The position numbers and the translations under genes are program-made. From Thermococcus sp. CX2 (lineage in GTDB: Archaea; Methanobacteriota_B; Thermococci; Thermococcales; Thermococcaceae), in assembly GCF_012027555.1 (NCBI RefSeq), contig NZ_SNUQ01000002.1, positions 62,001 to 126,000 of the forward strand: a DNA stretch of 64,000 nucleotides. The letters are read 5' to 3'. Below the pieces are notes generated by a model. That model did no database searches, was not told where the DNA came from, and saw nothing but the letters and a program-made list of their open reading frames with translations. Positions 56,311 to 63,150 of the stretch are shown in pieces (position 1 is the first letter of the stretch; each line of letters opens with the position of its first letter).

Positions 56311-56556
56311 TCACTCCTCTTCTTCCATTTCTACGACGATAGCGGTCGTTGTATCGATAACCCCATCGATGTTATGGATGTCATGGAGTATTTTTCTGGT
56401 CAGCTCCCCGAGGTCCTTGGCCTCGATGTGGACTATCGCATCGTAGGGCCCGGTAACTGCATCGGCCTTGGTGACCCCAGGAATCTGCTTAAGGGCCTCT
56501 ATGACGCTTTCTACTTTTCCAATCTCAACGGTCAATAAAACGTACGACCTAACCAT
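56311..56556 (-). CDS. RAM-domain-only Lrp-family protein (demi-FFRP, DM1-like)
   Basis: 81 aa. Only the ligand-binding RAM domain of Lrp/AsnC proteins: LLTVEIGKVESVIEALKQIP, DAVTGPYDAIVHIEAKDLGE, LHDIHNIDGVIDTTTAIVVE. No DNA-binding domain. DM1-type proteins can form disks and hetero-oligomers with full-length regulators, thereby modulating them. GGTGAAAAA precedes the ATG. A full-length FL11-like partner is encoded at 8765-9217. Confidence 0.92.
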   Translation of the reverse strand: MVRSYVLLTVEIGKVESVIEALKQIPGVTKADAVTGPYDAIVHIEAKDLGELTRKILHDIHNIDGVIDTTTAIVVEMEEEE

Positions 56557-56781: not shown

Positions 56782-58944
56782 ATGAAGGCGAAGGGTGCAA
56801 TAACCCTACTGGTTGTTTTTTTGGTGGTTTTTTCAGTAGTGGCCAGCGGCTGTATCAGCGGCTCTGAGAACACAACGACATCCACCGCTGAAACCCCGAC
56901 CCAGAGCTCACCGACGACGAGCACACAGGCCGAAACCGGCACCTCCACGCAGAGCGGTTCTCAAACCTCAGCCCTGGGTGGGCCCGGCATCATAGAGATG
57001 GACAAGGTGTACGTGATAGTCACTGACAAGAGCGTCATCGTTGTTGGCCCGAAGGGTGAGAAGCCGACCGTCGAGCTTCCCGAAGGAAAGAAGGTTATAA
57101 CCGTCAGCTACGTCGTCGACGAAGCCAACACGCCGGACGTCAAGACCCTCATGGAGAAGGGCCAGGGATTCGGTGCGATTAACCCAGCGTTCTTCCGCGA
57201 TGAGCACGTCGATGCCCTCGTCGTCGCCGCGAGGAGGGAAACCGACCCGACGATAAGAACCGAGCTCTTTAAGGCGCTCTACATCCTCGGAAACAAGTTC
57301 GTTCCTGAGGTCATTCTCGGCCAGAATATACAGCTCCGCGTCTACTGGGACTGGGTCAAGGGACGCTATTACCACCCGACCCTCGCCGAGCGCTACGACC
57401 TCCTCACCGAGGACCCGAACGCTCCGGTCGTCAAGATAGGCATCAAGGACTACACCAACGATCCCGAGACCTATGTCATAGCCACCGCGGGCTGGCCGGA
57501 GAGCTTTGACCCGGCCATGACCTACGAGACCTTCGGCTGGCAGATATGGCACGAGATAGGCGACACCCTCGTCACCTACTGGAAGGAGGAGACCGAGGAG
57601 GTCAGCCCGGACCTCGCCGTCGCCTGGGCCCACAACGAGGACGGCACCGAGTGGTATTTCCTCATAAGGGGCGGCGTCAATGCTTACGACCCGTGGAACG
57701 ACAAGACCTATCCGATTGACGCCACCGACGTTGCCTTCACCTTCCTCCGCGTTGAGAGGCTCGGCCACAGCGTCAGCTGGATGGTGAGCAGCTTCATGGA
57801 CGTCAACGCCTCACAGGCACTAACAGAGGAGGAGTTCGACCAGTACCTCAAGGAGCACCCGCTCATAGCCGAGTACCGCGGCAAGACCGCCGAGATAAAG
57901 AGTCTCGACGACCTCAAGAAGTTCTTCGGCTACGACGGTCCGACCGCCGGCGTCTTCAAGCTCGTCCTCCCGCAGCCCTACACCCCTGTCCTCGGAATAC
58001 TCTCCGACCCGTTCCTCAGCGTCGTCCCGATGGAGTACCTCCTCGGTGACAAGTACGAGGAGGCCCTCAAGGCGAGCGACAACGGCCACAACCCAGGGGC
58101 CTGGTGGAACTACCTGAGCGAGGGCAAGAGCGACCCGACCCACCAGCTCATGCACAACTACCCGGTCGGAACAGGTCCGTTCTACGTCAAGGACTACCAG
58201 AAGGACGCCTACATCGTGCTCGAGTACAACCAGCACTACTGGAACGCCACCGCCAACCCAGGCCACGAGAGGGTCATATACATCATCAACAGCGACCCGA
58301 TGGCGAGGATAAACCTGTACAAGACCGGAACGGCCGATGCAGTCGCGATACCGCCCGAGAAGATGGACACCGTCAAGGGCCTCGAGCTCAAGGGCTTCAA
58401 GTCGATTGTCCAGACCGACATAGTCGAGCCCGTGCTGACCTTCCTCGTCTTCAACACCCAGAGGGAGCCCTTCAACGACCCGAAGGTCAGGGAGGCCCTC
58501 GCCTACGCTGTTCCCTACGAGCAGATAGCCAAGGTCGTCTACCAGGAACTCCTCGCCAGGAACTGGGGACCGATACCGAAGCCGTGGCCGGGCTACACCG
58601 AGGAGGGCATCACTAAGTATGACTACAACCTCGCCAAGGCCAAGCAGCTCCTCAACGAGGCCGGCGTCGACCCGACCAAGTACAAGATTGAGCTAATATA
58701 CAACGAGGGCAACGCGGCCCGTGAGAAGATAATGACCCTCCTCCAGAACGTCTGGAGCCAGCTCGGCTTCCAGGTTACCGTCAACAGCTACAACTGGCCG
58801 ACCTACCTCGACAAGACCGAGCACGGCGAGTACGACGTCTACATCGTCGGATGGGTTCCAGACTACCTCGACTCCGACAACTGGGTCGGCCCGTTCCTCT
58901 ACGGAGCCACGGAGTTCGAGAGCGTTGAGGTCAGCGTTAGCTGA
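56782..58944 (+). CDS. dppA: Peptide ABC transporter substrate-binding lipoprotein, apparently circularly permuted
   Basis: 720 aa. Lipobox VASGC (Cys24), then a Thr/Ser-rich linker to about residue 63. Residues about 133-208 (INPAFFRDEHVDALVVAARR, RTELFKALYILGNKFVP, WDWVKGRYYHPTLAERYDL) correspond to the segment that ends normal SBP_bac_5 proteins. The usual mature N-terminus (YVIATAGWPESFDPAMTYET) begins only at about 229. The chain then follows the normal order but stops shortly after YLDSDNWVGPFLYGATEF, where the missing segment should come. The gene heads the dppABCDF operon and should bind oligopeptides outside the membrane. Natural permutation or an assembly error are the options. Confidence 0.85.
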   Translation: MKAKGAITLLVVFLVVFSVVASGCISGSENTTTSTAETPTQSSPTTSTQAETGTSTQSGSQTSALGGPGIIEMDKVYVIVTDKSVIVVGPKGEKPTVELPEGKKVITVSYVVDEANTPDVKTLMEKGQGFGAINPAFFRDEHVDALVVAARRETDPTIRTELFKALYILGNKFVPEVILGQNIQLRVYWDWVKGRYYHPTLAERYDLLTEDPNAPVVKIGIKDYTNDPETYVIATAGWPESFDPAMTYETFGWQIWHEIGDTLVTYWKEETEEVSPDLAVAWAHNEDGTEWYFLIRGGVNAYDPWNDKTYPIDATDVAFTFLRVERLGHSVSWMVSSFMDVNASQALTEEEFDQYLKEHPLIAEYRGKTAEIKSLDDLKKFFGYDGPTAGVFKLVLPQPYTPVLGILSDPFLSVVPMEYLLGDKYEEALKASDNGHNPGAWWNYLSEGKSDPTHQLMHNYPVGTGPFYVKDYQKDAYIVLEYNQHYWNATANPGHERVIYIINSDPMARINLYKTGTADAVAIPPEKMDTVKGLELKGFKSIVQTDIVEPVLTFLVFNTQREPFNDPKVREALAYAVPYEQIAKVVYQELLARNWGPIPKPWPGYTEEGITKYDYNLAKAKQLLNEAGVDPTKYKIELIYNEGNAAREKIMTLLQNVWSQLGFQVTVNSYNWPTYLDKTEHGEYDVYIVGWVPDYLDSDNWVGPFLYGATEFESVEVSVS

Positions 58945-59003: not shown

Positions 59004-60005
59004 TTGGCGAACCTCAAGAAGTTCCTAATAAGGAGGCTCCTGACGTTTATACCCACGCTCATCGGCGTCACGCTCATAGTTTTTCTCATCGCCTACGTCA
59101 TTCCGGCCGATGTCGCGCGCGCCTGGGCCGGCGGCGAGAAGGCGAGCCAGCAGTACATAGAGCAGATAAGGAAAGAATACCACCTCGACGAGCCCTGGTA
59201 CGACCAGTACTGGTTCCTGATAAGCGGCCTCGCGAAGAACAGCATCGTCGACCCAAGGACTTCCAACTACGTCTTCGACGACATAAAGGAGAGGTTCCCA
59301 GTAACGTTTGAGCTGGCCCTGGTAGCGTTCTTCTTCATAATAATAATCGGAATTCCCCTGGGCATAATCTCCGCCCTCAAGAGAAACACCTGGATAGACA
59401 CCCTCATAAGGTTCTTCGCCCTTACCGGCGTCTCAATGCCCGTTTTCTGGCTCGGTTACTTGCTCATATACGTGTTCTTTGTGAAGGTCCACTGGATAAC
59501 CCTCGCGGGCTTCCCCGCCCCTCCGGAGCACCAGATAACCCACATACCGATGATAGACGCCCTCCTGACGGGAGACTTCCAGACCTTTGCCCAGCACCTG
59601 CACAGGCTCTGGCTTCCGGGCTTCACGCTCGGCTTCATGGGCGCCGGAGTTCTGGCGAGGTTCGTCAGGAACAGCTTCCTTGAGGCGATAAACAGCGACT
59701 ACGTTGCTTTCCTCAAGGCGAAGGGCGTTCCAAAGAGGAGTATCTACCGCCACACCCTCAAGAACGCGATGGTGCCGATAGTTACCGTCCTCGGCCTCCA
59801 GTTTGGAGGTTTACTCGGAGGAACGCCGATTACCGAGACGGTCTTCGGCCTGCCGGGAATGGGCTCCTACGTCTTGGACTCAATCAGGAACCTCGACTTC
59901 CCAGCGGTGGTGGCAATAACCCTCGTTTTCGCGTTGATATTCCTCATAACGAACCTCGTGGTTGACATACTCTACGCCCTGATAGACCCAAGGGTGAGGT
60001 ACTGA
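59004..60005 (+). CDS. dppB: Peptide ABC transporter permease DppB
   Basis: 333 aa, six helices. ILIRRLLTFIPTLIGVTLIV-like N-terminus (from residue 8) and the EAA loop YVAFLKAKGVPKRSIYRHTL followed by LKNAMVPIVTVLGLQFGGLL are DppB signatures. ITETVFGLPGMGSYVLDSI is the usual C-terminal motif. The TTG at 59004 follows GGGGGGATCAAG. It lies 59 bases after dppA. Confidence 0.94.
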   Translation: MANLKKFLIRRLLTFIPTLIGVTLIVFLIAYVIPADVARAWAGGEKASQQYIEQIRKEYHLDEPWYDQYWFLISGLAKNSIVDPRTSNYVFDDIKERFPVTFELALVAFFFIIIIGIPLGIISALKRNTWIDTLIRFFALTGVSMPVFWLGYLLIYVFFVKVHWITLAGFPAPPEHQITHIPMIDALLTGDFQTFAQHLHRLWLPGFTLGFMGAGVLARFVRNSFLEAINSDYVAFLKAKGVPKRSIYRHTLKNAMVPIVTVLGLQFGGLLGGTPITETVFGLPGMGSYVLDSIRNLDFPAVVAITLVFALIFLITNLVVDILYALIDPRVRY

Positions 60006-60014
60006 GGTGATAAA

Positions 60015-61190
60015 ATGAGCAGGGAGGAGTACAAGAAAAACGTCCTCGACAGGTTTTCTGACTGGCTCATCGAGGCCATAGGCTCTTTCATCAGCCTTTT
60101 CAAAAAGGACTGGAAGAGGAAGAACCGCTCCAAGATGGAAGAGTGGAAGCTCATGCTCTACGCCCTCAACCGCTCGCCCCCGGGCTTGATAGGCCTCGCC
60201 CTCGTGCTGATGTTCGTGTTCCTCGGAATATTCGGCCCGAGCCTCGCACCGTGGAGCTACCGCTTCTTCCCGACCAACTACAACTTCGAGACATACCTCG
60301 CGCCGCCGGGCTCGAGCTTCGTTCTTAACGTCACTGAGATCCGGGGAGACCAAGTTATCAGCTACATTACCACCATACACTACCCGCTCGGCGCCGACCA
60401 CTACGGAAGGGACCTGCTCAGCCTCATCCTCTACGGCGCCAGGGTTTCCTTCGTGATATCAATACTCGTCGTTGCCCTCGGAGTTCCGCTCGGCATAATC
60501 CTGGGACTAATAGCGGGTTACTACGGCGGCAAGGTTGACGAGCTCGTGATGCGCATCACCGACGTCTTCCTTGCCTTCCCGGCGCTCATACTGGCGATAG
60601 CGTTCTCAGCTGTGCTCCCCCAGAGGCTCCAGGACTTCATCTCGGCCCATGAGTCGGTTCAGAGCTTCGTGCTCTGGCTCTTCGCCCTTGAGCCCCAGGA
60701 TGCAGGCAACCTCGGAAAGCTGCTCGCGGTTATACTGGCAATGATAATCGTCTGGTGGCCGGCATACGCAAGGATAACCCGTGGCTCAACGCTTACCGAG
60801 AGGGAAAACCTCTACGTTGAAGCCGCCAGAGCGATAGGGCTCAGCTCAAGGACGATAATGTTCAAGCACATCCTCCCCAACATCATCGGCCCAATACTCG
60901 TCTACATCACCCTTGACTTCGGCGGTGTCATACTGATGGAGGCCGGCCTGAGCTTCCTTGGCCTCGGAGCAACGCCGCCGATAGCAGACTGGGGAAGGAT
61001 AGTCTACGACGGCTCCCAGTACTTCCCGGAGAAGTGGTGGCTGGTTACGTTCTCGGGATTCATGATAATGCTCGTCGCCCTTGGCTGGAACCTGCTCGGA
61101 GACACGATGAGGGACATCCTCGACCCGAAGACGAGGAGGAGCATAGAGTTCAAGGTCAAGAAGAGCAAGGAGGGTGAGAGCAATGCCTGA
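60015..61190 (+). CDS. dppC: Peptide ABC transporter permease DppC
   Basis: 391 aa, longer than usual because of a cytoplasmic N-terminus of about 45 residues and a periplasmic loop after the first helix (about 80-118). YPLGADHYGRDLLSLILYGA is the DppC signature; the EAA loop is YVEAARAIGLSSRTIMFKHI. GLSFLGLGATPPIADWGRIV follows. GGTGATAAA precedes the ATG; the gene overlaps dppD by 8 bases. Confidence 0.94.
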   Translation: MSREEYKKNVLDRFSDWLIEAIGSFISLFKKDWKRKNRSKMEEWKLMLYALNRSPPGLIGLALVLMFVFLGIFGPSLAPWSYRFFPTNYNFETYLAPPGSSFVLNVTEIRGDQVISYITTIHYPLGADHYGRDLLSLILYGARVSFVISILVVALGVPLGIILGLIAGYYGGKVDELVMRITDVFLAFPALILAIAFSAVLPQRLQDFISAHESVQSFVLWLFALEPQDAGNLGKLLAVILAMIIVWWPAYARITRGSTLTERENLYVEAARAIGLSSRTIMFKHILPNIIGPILVYITLDFGGVILMEAGLSFLGLGATPPIADWGRIVYDGSQYFPEKWWLVTFSGFMIMLVALGWNLLGDTMRDILDPKTRRSIEFKVKKSKEGESNA

Positions 61191-62163
61191 GCCGATTCTT
61201 GAAGTTCGCGATTTAACTGTTCACTTCTACACCTACGCCGGCATAGTCAAGGCCATCGAGAAGGTTTCTTTCGACGTCTACCGCGGCGAGACCTTCGCGC
61301 TCGTCGGCGAAACCGGCTGCGGAAAAAGCGTGACCTCGAGGGCATTAACTCAGCTCATCGAGAGCCCCGGAAGAATAGTTGAGGGAAGCGTTCTCTACCA
61401 CAGGGAGGACGGTTCCACAGTCGACCTGCTCAAGCTGAGCGAGGAGGAGATAAGGGAAATCAGGGGCAACGAAATAGCCTACATCTTCCAGGACCCACAC
61501 GCCTCGCTTGACCCGCTCTACACCGTCGGCTATCAAATAGCCGAGGCGATGGTCGTCCACAAAACAGTCAAAGACTGGAAGGAGGGCTTCAAGCGGGCCG
61601 TCGACATACTCAGGCACGTTCTAATTCCCGACCCAGAGAGAAGGGTGAAGAACTATCCACACGAGATGAGCGGAGGAATGAAGCAGCGTGTCGTGATTGG
61701 AATCGGCGTCTCCAACAACCCCAAGATTCTCATCGCGGACGAGCCCACCACCGCCCTCGACGTTACCGTCCAGGCGCAGATACTCGACCTCATGAACAAA
61801 CTAAAGCAGGAATACAACACGACGGTCATACTGATCACCCACAACATGGGCGTCGTCGCCGAGATGGCCGATCGCGTGGCCGTTATGTACGCGGGCAAAA
61901 TCGTTGAGATTGGCTCGGTAGAGCAGATATTCAAGAACCCGCTGCACCCCTACACCCAGGGACTCCTCAGGGCCGTTCCCAACCCTCTCGGAAAGATAGA
62001 CAGGCTTGAGACGATTCCAGGGACTGTTCCAAACCTCATAGAGCCCCCGAGCGGCTGCCGCTTCCATCCCCGTTGCCCAAGGGTCATGGGCGTGTGCAGG
62101 CAGAAGGTTCCCGAGCTGAAGGAGATAGAGCCCGGTCACTTCGTTGCCTGCCACCTTTACTGA
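61183..62163 (+). CDS. dppD: Peptide ABC transporter ATP-binding protein DppD
   Basis: 326 aa. Walker A GETGCGKSVTSR, Q-loop YIFQDPHASLDPLYT, signature MSGGMKQRVVIG, Walker B ILIADEPTTALDV and switch His in ILITHNMGVVAEMA. The C-terminal oligopeptide motif region has cysteines [17 protein letters not shown] that bind a [4Fe-4S] or metal site in this family. ATG 61183 follows AGGGTGAGAGC; the in-frame GTG just upstream overlaps that signal. Confidence 0.95.
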   Translation: MPEPILEVRDLTVHFYTYAGIVKAIEKVSFDVYRGETFALVGETGCGKSVTSRALTQLIESPGRIVEGSVLYHREDGSTVDLLKLSEEEIREIRGNEIAYIFQDPHASLDPLYTVGYQIAEAMVVHKTVKDWKEGFKRAVDILRHVLIPDPERRVKNYPHEMSGGMKQRVVIGIGVSNNPKILIADEPTTALDVTVQAQILDLMNKLKQEYNTTVILITHNMGVVAEMADRVAVMYAGKIVEIGSVEQIFKNPLHPYTQGLLRAVPNPLGKIDRLETIPGTVPNLIEPPSGCRFHPRCPRVMGVCRQKVPELKEIEPGHFVACHLY

Positions 62164-62172
62164 GGTGATAGC

Positions 62173-63150
62173 ATGAGCGAGCCGATACTCAAGGTTGAGA
62201 ACCTAAAGAAGTACTTCCCGATCAGGGGTCTCTTCAGGACGATCGGCTACGTCAAGGCGGTCGATGGGGTAAGCTTCGAGATAAACCGCGGCGAGACCTT
62301 CGGCCTCGTTGGCGAAAGCGGCTGCGGCAAGACCACGACCGGAAGGACGATACTCCGCCTGATAGAGCCCACGGACGGAAAGATAATCTTCCAGGGCAAG
62401 GACGTCACCCACCTGAAGGGCGAGGAGATGAAGTGGTTCAGGAGAAAAGCCCAGATAATGTTCCAGGACCCGTACTCGTCGCTCAACCCCAGGCAGACGG
62501 TCTTTGAAATCATCATGGAACCCGTCCGCTTCCACGGCATCCAGGTGAACGACCCGGAGGAGTTCGTGGTGGGGCTCCTCGAGAGCGTCGGCCTCAACGA
62601 GATGCACCTCTACCGCTACCCCCATGAGTTTTCGGGCGGCCAGAGGCAGCGCATAGCCCTCGCGAGGCTCCTGGCGCTTAAACCAGAGTTCATAGTCCTC
62701 GACGAGCCAACTTCAGCTCTGGACGTCTCCGTCCAAGCAAACATCCTCAACACGCTGAAGGACCTCCAGAGGGAGCACGGCTTTACATACCTCTTCATCA
62801 GCCACGACCTCGGCGTTGTGAAGTACATGAGCCACAGGATGGGCGTGATGTACCTTGGCAAGCTCGTTGAGGTCGGCCCCGCTGAGAGGATATTCGAGAA
62901 CCCGCTGCACCCGTACACGAAGTTCCTCCTCTCAGCCATACCTGTTCCGGACCCAGACCTCGCCAGGGAACTCAAGGAGAAGCGCATGAAGGTCGAAGGC
63001 GAGCCGCCGAGCCCGATAAACCCGCCCGCCGGCTGTCGCTTCCACCCGCGCTGTCCCTTCGCGGAGGAGAGGTGCAGGAAGGAGAAACCTCCGCTCATCG
63101 AGGTCGAGAAGGACCACTACGTCGCCTGCTGGCTCTACGCCAAGTTTTAG
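62173..63150 (+). CDS. dppF: Peptide ABC transporter ATP-binding protein DppF
   Basis: 325 aa. Walker [19 protein letters not shown]-loop [17 protein letters not shown], signature [15 protein letters not shown], Walker [14 protein letters not shown], switch FISHDLGVV. The C-terminus again carries [17 protein letters not shown] with clustered cysteines. It forms the heterodimeric ATPase with DppD. GAGGTGATAGC precedes the ATG. The convergent neighbour overlaps its end by 4 bases. Confidence 0.95.

Follow-up and report, generated by a model that had tools for sequence, protein, structure and literature searches.

A putative peptide-binding lipoprotein of a Thermococcus dpp operon as a natural circular permutant, in an archaeal receptor family that was probably permuted repeatedly

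The stretch analysed here (the window) comprises 64,000 nucleotides of Thermococcus sp. CX2 (contig NZ_SNUQ01000002.1, positions 62,001 to 126,000), and its gene of interest is an open reading frame at 56782-58944 on the forward strand, which starts with ATG and encodes a 720-residue lipoprotein, the putative peptide receptor of a dpp-type importer. A signal peptide with an archaeal lipobox (VVASGC, Cys24, called by sequence inspection; 56782..56853, +) is predicted to provide an N-terminal lipid anchor, and the GC of the lipobox is conserved in 28 Thermococcus orthologues. As the original prediction had stated, a Ser/Thr-rich low-complexity linker follows (residues 25-65; 56854..56976, +); its length varies between orthologues. 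We divided the remainder of the chain into four segments. Element x (residues 68-131; 56983..57174, +) is a beta-rich connector recognized from a segment map built with hidden Markov models (HMMs), a junction table and the strands of an AlphaFold2 model, and in other permutants it lies between B and C. Segment C (residues 132-222, core 138-205; 57175..57447, +) corresponds to the C-terminal segment of canonical SBP_bac_5 proteins, here placed N-terminally, as judged by hhalign and by profile matches in the PDB. Segment A (residues 228-491; 57463..58254, +) represents the canonical mature N-terminal part, or lobe I, by phmmer alignment to DppA and the HMM map. Segment B (residues 493-716; 58258..58929, +), the central SBP_bac_5 part by PF00496 and the DppA alignment, is here C-terminal; it closes with DNWVGPFLYGATEF, and the chain ends eight residues later, just as first described.

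Four genes on the same strand complete a transport operon: a dppB-like permease (59004..60005; PF00528, PF19300), a dppC-like permease (60015..61190; PF00528), and dppD-like and dppF-like ATPases (61174..62163 and 62173..63150), both with PF00005 and PF08352 (oligo_HPY). The protein thus combines an export signal and a conserved membrane anchor with a gene position beside two permeases and two oligo_HPY ATPases. On the other side, a divergent gene (56311-56556, -) adjoins the receptor gene and encodes an 81-residue stand-alone protein whose sequence resembles an Lrp/AsnC ligand-binding domain.

Family membership is well supported by PF00496 (SBP_bac_5), which scores 231.6 bits against a cut-off of 32.4. 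This match covers only residues 273-709, so that the domain model misses the moved segment. The segment order is x-C-A-B and not the A-B-C order usual for SBP_bac_5 proteins, which lies outside the Pfam model. The equivalog model of E. coli DppA, NF043070, reaches 127 bits, below its cut-off of 1005, and specificity is accordingly not assigned. In phmmer alignments, the mature N-terminus of DppA begins to align at query residue 229/230, in agreement with the start at about 229 originally proposed, and the central part of DppA aligns at query 456-705. The same search placed query 146-195 on DppA 442-491 at a sub-significant level, with a domain score below zero. Such weak single-sequence similarity would also be expected if a canonical protein had lost its tail and carried an unrelated N-terminal extension that is tail-like by chance, and the PDB searches give this idea some further room: the head profile, compared with all PDB chain sequences, returned SBP_bac_5 proteins as its top five matches, all at their C-terminal tails, with marginal E-values (0.003-0.2) and with a weak second match elsewhere in the top one.

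Profile comparisons point the other way. A profile of residues 64-228 from the 28 Thermococcus orthologues matches the C-terminal segment of canonical SBP_bac_5 paralogues (519-558-residue Thermococcus proteins and others of the class) over residues 138-205, with a probability of 95% and an E-value of 1.8e-8; hhalign probabilities for this region ranged from 95 to 97%. When all x-C-A-B members were included, the score rose to 71.95 (E 8.3e-10), against a mean of 15.6 and a maximum of 27.5 in 200 column shuffles, and the match falls exactly at the expected place. Moreover, relatives with the order B-x-C-A carry the same x-C after B, where canonical proteins have C, and a single compact fold is predicted for the whole chain. 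Given these observations, chance likeness appears very improbable. The original prediction had read residues 133-208 as the closing segment of SBP_bac_5 proteins, and this assignment stands for the head; what it missed were the roughly 60 extra residues of element x ahead of that segment.

Rotation of the profile provides a further line of support. In the order A-B-x-C, its alignment with the canonical profile runs without a break over 472 columns (score 492), whereas the unrotated profile yields two separate matches, with scores of 446 and 71. The segment HMM map revealed no second, normal C-terminal copy of segment C, the finding that would have contradicted the first description; each protein carries one C. 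The moved segment is therefore homologous to the terminal segment of the family and present once per chain, with the old ends, C and A, joined and the new ends lying between B and x. On these sequence comparisons the window protein is a predicted SBP_bac_5 protein (Dpp/Opp, cluster C) in the order (x-C)-(A-B).

The whole-chain structure prediction that had been suggested as a check gave a confident single fold. AlphaFold2, run on an alignment of 107 rows in which fragments of other permutants were placed at their corresponding positions, returned a predicted local distance difference test score (pLDDT) of 95.2 and a predicted template modelling score (pTM) of 0.92, and its five models were near-equal in confidence; this result supersedes an earlier, poor model from 28 close orthologues (pLDDT 68). 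Foldseek searches of the PDB found the DppA/OppA family as best matches with a probability of 1.00, and TM-scores by target length of about 0.45-0.71 among the matches listed, from sequential alignment only. Two points weigh against our interpretation here. Foldseek aligns in chain order, so that the moved part is not counted and the permutation is not demonstrable by this means; and we infer where the head sits from sequence and from the confidence with which the whole chain was modelled. Overall, we consider the gene product to be a lipid-anchored peptide-binding protein of a DppABCDF-type importer, with a cluster C fold and a natural circular permutation, at a probability of roughly 0.94.

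Does this order belong to the organism, or to its assembly? Mis-assembly had been named as the main alternative, and the window genome is indeed a draft of 25 contigs, in which a canonical gene might have been scrambled. The gene, however, is interior to a 512-kb contig with its operon intact. Within the genus, 28 genomes, including many in a single contig, encode near-full-length orthologues that share this order, which supplies the orthologue comparison proposed at the outset. The head profile is present in 62 of the 115 genomes of the phylum, spread over five genera, as well as in Archaeoglobi and many Thermoproteota; no relatives were found in the archaeal phylum around genome G059. The x-C-A-B order recurs in closed genomes of Thermococcaceae, Archaeoglobi and Thermoproteota, and because these are independent, mis-assembly is excluded as the explanation; the chance of an assembly or sequencing artefact is, in our estimation, practically negligible. 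Ratios of nonsynonymous to synonymous substitution (about 0.07-0.15 for the head and about 0.08-0.17 for the body) indicate purifying selection on both parts. PF1408 of Pyrococcus furiosus is probably the orthologue of the window protein, judging by size, lipobox and annotation. It is a 79.4-kDa putative dipeptide-binding lipoprotein that was detected in the secretome, and permutation is not part of its description in the accessible text of that source (PMC3824201).

Relatives with several types of permutation retain the receptor-dppBCDF order, and the window's gene order, with dppB next to the receptor, is the same in relatives; some short loci do not show the downstream genes. One locus (L116:1-4339) has a second dpp-like permease and ATPase set directly upstream of the permuted receptor's operon, and one Desulfurococcales group (L124, L125, L126, L127) has about 3 kb between the permuted receptor gene and dppB. 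Elsewhere the gene seems broken or split (G007 with L029/L069, G076, and G102 with L178), and it is absent from G011. A 1297-residue frame in G462 (L180), which reads as a glycosidase-like protein fused to the receptor, spans unknown bases (X's); for that reason we do not take it as evidence of fusion, and it is probably a scaffold gap.

In this genomic setting, the sequence features make a membrane-tethered peptide receptor of the DppBCDF importer the most likely function. The head would pack where the tail of DppA sits, preserving cleft and hinge, and peptide would be bound in the usual two-lobed cleft. The protein may then work as an ordinary Venus-flytrap receptor that passes peptides to DppBC.

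We sought the segments x, C, A and B in relatives by HMM mapping and assigned four orders: P1 (x-C-A-B, the window type), P2 (B-x-C-A), P3 (cut inside B) and P4 (x2-C-A-B-x1). P2 occurs in three genomes (G061-G063; L164, L165, L166) of a Palaeococcus-like sister genus of the same family and in many Thermoproteota. The Palaeococcus-like genes have dppB downstream, and their products are 72-76% identical to the window protein. A BLAST comparison with the P2 protein of a Palaeococcus-like genome in a single contig (1,859,370 bp) makes the exchange plain: window residues 73-488 correspond to its residues 313-728 (75.7%), and window residues 495-719 to its residues 78-302 (71.6%). P3 comes from one contig of a metagenome-assembled genome named Thermoplasmata (L108:1993-4404), where the cut lies at window position 537/538 at 63-67% identity; the contig is 4.9 kb long, no dppB is visible on it, and no further example was found, the class searched around that genome containing it alone. 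P4 is a divergent Thermoproteota group (L154, L181-L185) of 669-698 residues with the cut in the middle of x, following its first strand. The two halves of the B-x connector match opposite ends of these proteins: the first half aligns with the C-terminal tail (E 6e-9, score 44.7, shuffles reaching 14.9 at most) and the second with the N-terminus (E 3.5e-11, score 57, shuffles reaching 18.1 at most). One genome, G427 (L162, L185), holds P2 and P4 paralogues on a single 1.83-Mb contig.

Throughout the clade, C continues directly into A, which closes the canonical termini. P1 and P3 proteins have an intact A-B loop (NPYYWN.TLW..LYG...HK.VIYL in Thermoproteota, shorter in many Thermococcus), and it is within this loop that P2 is cut. 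The B-x connector, a short helix and a strand, is intact in P2 proteins. In Thermoproteota P1 proteins the cut follows the connector helix, with C-terminal tails such as VSSVEEAQQIFSK, and in one Thermococcus group it precedes the helix, with the N-terminus SKAVKYIEEHLSNATVIET. The exact place of the cut thus varies even among proteins of the same order. Among the loci mapped, the order A-B-x-C was not found in any clade member, nor was a tandem intermediate found.

A tree on rotated sequences separates the clade from canonical paralogues, and the four orders require at least five topology changes on it. Forcing all P2 proteins to be monophyletic lowered the log-likelihood by 394 and was rejected by the approximately unbiased (AU) test (p 2.4e-40); this test followed inspection of the first tree, and its P2 group was delimited by segment order. 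When B and x-C-A were each given a tree of their own, the P2 proteins of the sister genus fell among P1 Thermococcaceae and Archaeoglobus. Since both part-trees agree, the parts of these P2 proteins appear to be local and rearranged, not imported from Thermoproteota.

Alternatively, each order may have arisen once, with B-x-C-A and x-C-A-B then spreading by gene transfer. Transfer does happen in this clade, as Archaeoglobus sequences are nested in Thermococcaceae. The long outgroup branch leaves the root of the clade, and hence the order of events, unsure, which counts against a firm claim of repeated change. B-x-C-A proteins of the Palaeococcus-like genus and of Thermoproteota also have similar C-terminal tails (..LW..xYGYKP), which could mean inheritance. 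Yet x-C-A-B relatives likewise have the ..LW..LYG motif, within an A-B loop that is not cut, and this explains the tail likeness without a shared cut. A single origin of B-x-C-A is also what the AU test rejects; the Palaeococcus-like proteins, close as they are to the window protein, sit inside the x-C-A-B clade for both parts; and the x-C-A-B cuts of Thermoproteota and Thermococcales lie at different places of the connector. Taken together, single origins with transfer seem unlikely. We consider it quite likely, instead, that one archaeal receptor family underwent permutation several times, that its chain was opened at no fewer than three well-supported sites (B|x, A|B and inside x; perhaps also inside B), so that orthologues with about 70% identity and a shared dpp operon begin at different places in one fold, and that a long tether made the position of the termini nearly neutral.

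In DppA and OppA, lobe I carries the canonical N-terminus, and the B-C junction belongs to the C-terminal lobe; by this lobe assignment the termini of the window protein lie in a different lobe from those of cluster C proteins. The tether would thus leave the C-terminal lobe instead of lobe I, a shift that the Ser/Thr linker of about 40 residues between fold and anchor may well make tolerable. An N-terminal anchor followed by a long low-complexity linker is common to all forms inspected. Because sister lineages move the tether elsewhere and have long linkers, its position is most likely near-neutral, and permutants could have become fixed on that account. A purpose is conceivable too: with the tether on the C-terminal lobe instead of lobe I, docking on DppBC or the path of the linker may change. 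The anchor position does move, and a comparable idea has been proposed for Treponema MglB-2 in the accessible text of its source (PMC4990184). We regard a purpose as doubtful, however, as sister lineages with the same operon place cut and tether elsewhere (B-x-C-A, x2-C-A-B-x1), which favours near-neutral drift.

As to history, an in-frame tandem duplication or fusion may have joined C to A in the ancestor of the clade, and later duplicate-and-trim events would have shifted the cut to give B-x-C-A, x2-C-A-B-x1 and possibly the cut inside B; alternative starts and stops in a tandem copy could yield each observed order. The original statement that the C-terminal segment has moved to the N-terminus accordingly describes the resulting order correctly but not necessarily what happened, as the joined C-A is common to all relatives and the cut was shifted several times.

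The closest known proteins are those of cluster C (E. coli DppA, H. pylori DppA, OppA and AppA), which share family, segments and operon setting with the window protein and are its best structural matches, but have the order A-B-C instead of C-A-B and lack element x. For natural circular permutation, the usual picture is of a single ancient event in a given family. In the open-access literature, with most subscription literature outside this scope, we found no permuted cluster C or peptide-binding protein, only biosensor papers and MglB-2, and no report of repeated permutation. MglB-2 (Tp0684) of Treponema pallidum is a circularly permuted cluster B sugar-binding protein; according to the accessible text of its source, it too is a naturally permuted, tethered receptor of an ATP-binding cassette importer whose permutation is kept in a clade, although it is cut differently, with N-terminal strands near the C-terminus, and a single permuted topology is described for it, versus the several cut sites here (PMC4990184). 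Permutation in a binding protein was therefore already known, and its repetition is the striking part. With close orthologues in the same operon that differ in where the chain starts, the duplicate-fuse-trim path to permutants becomes open to study, as does the fitness cost of shifted chain ends, on natural and recently diverged proteins. Thermostable permuted peptide-binding proteins with naturally accepted alternative termini may also be useful for the design of binding-protein biosensors.
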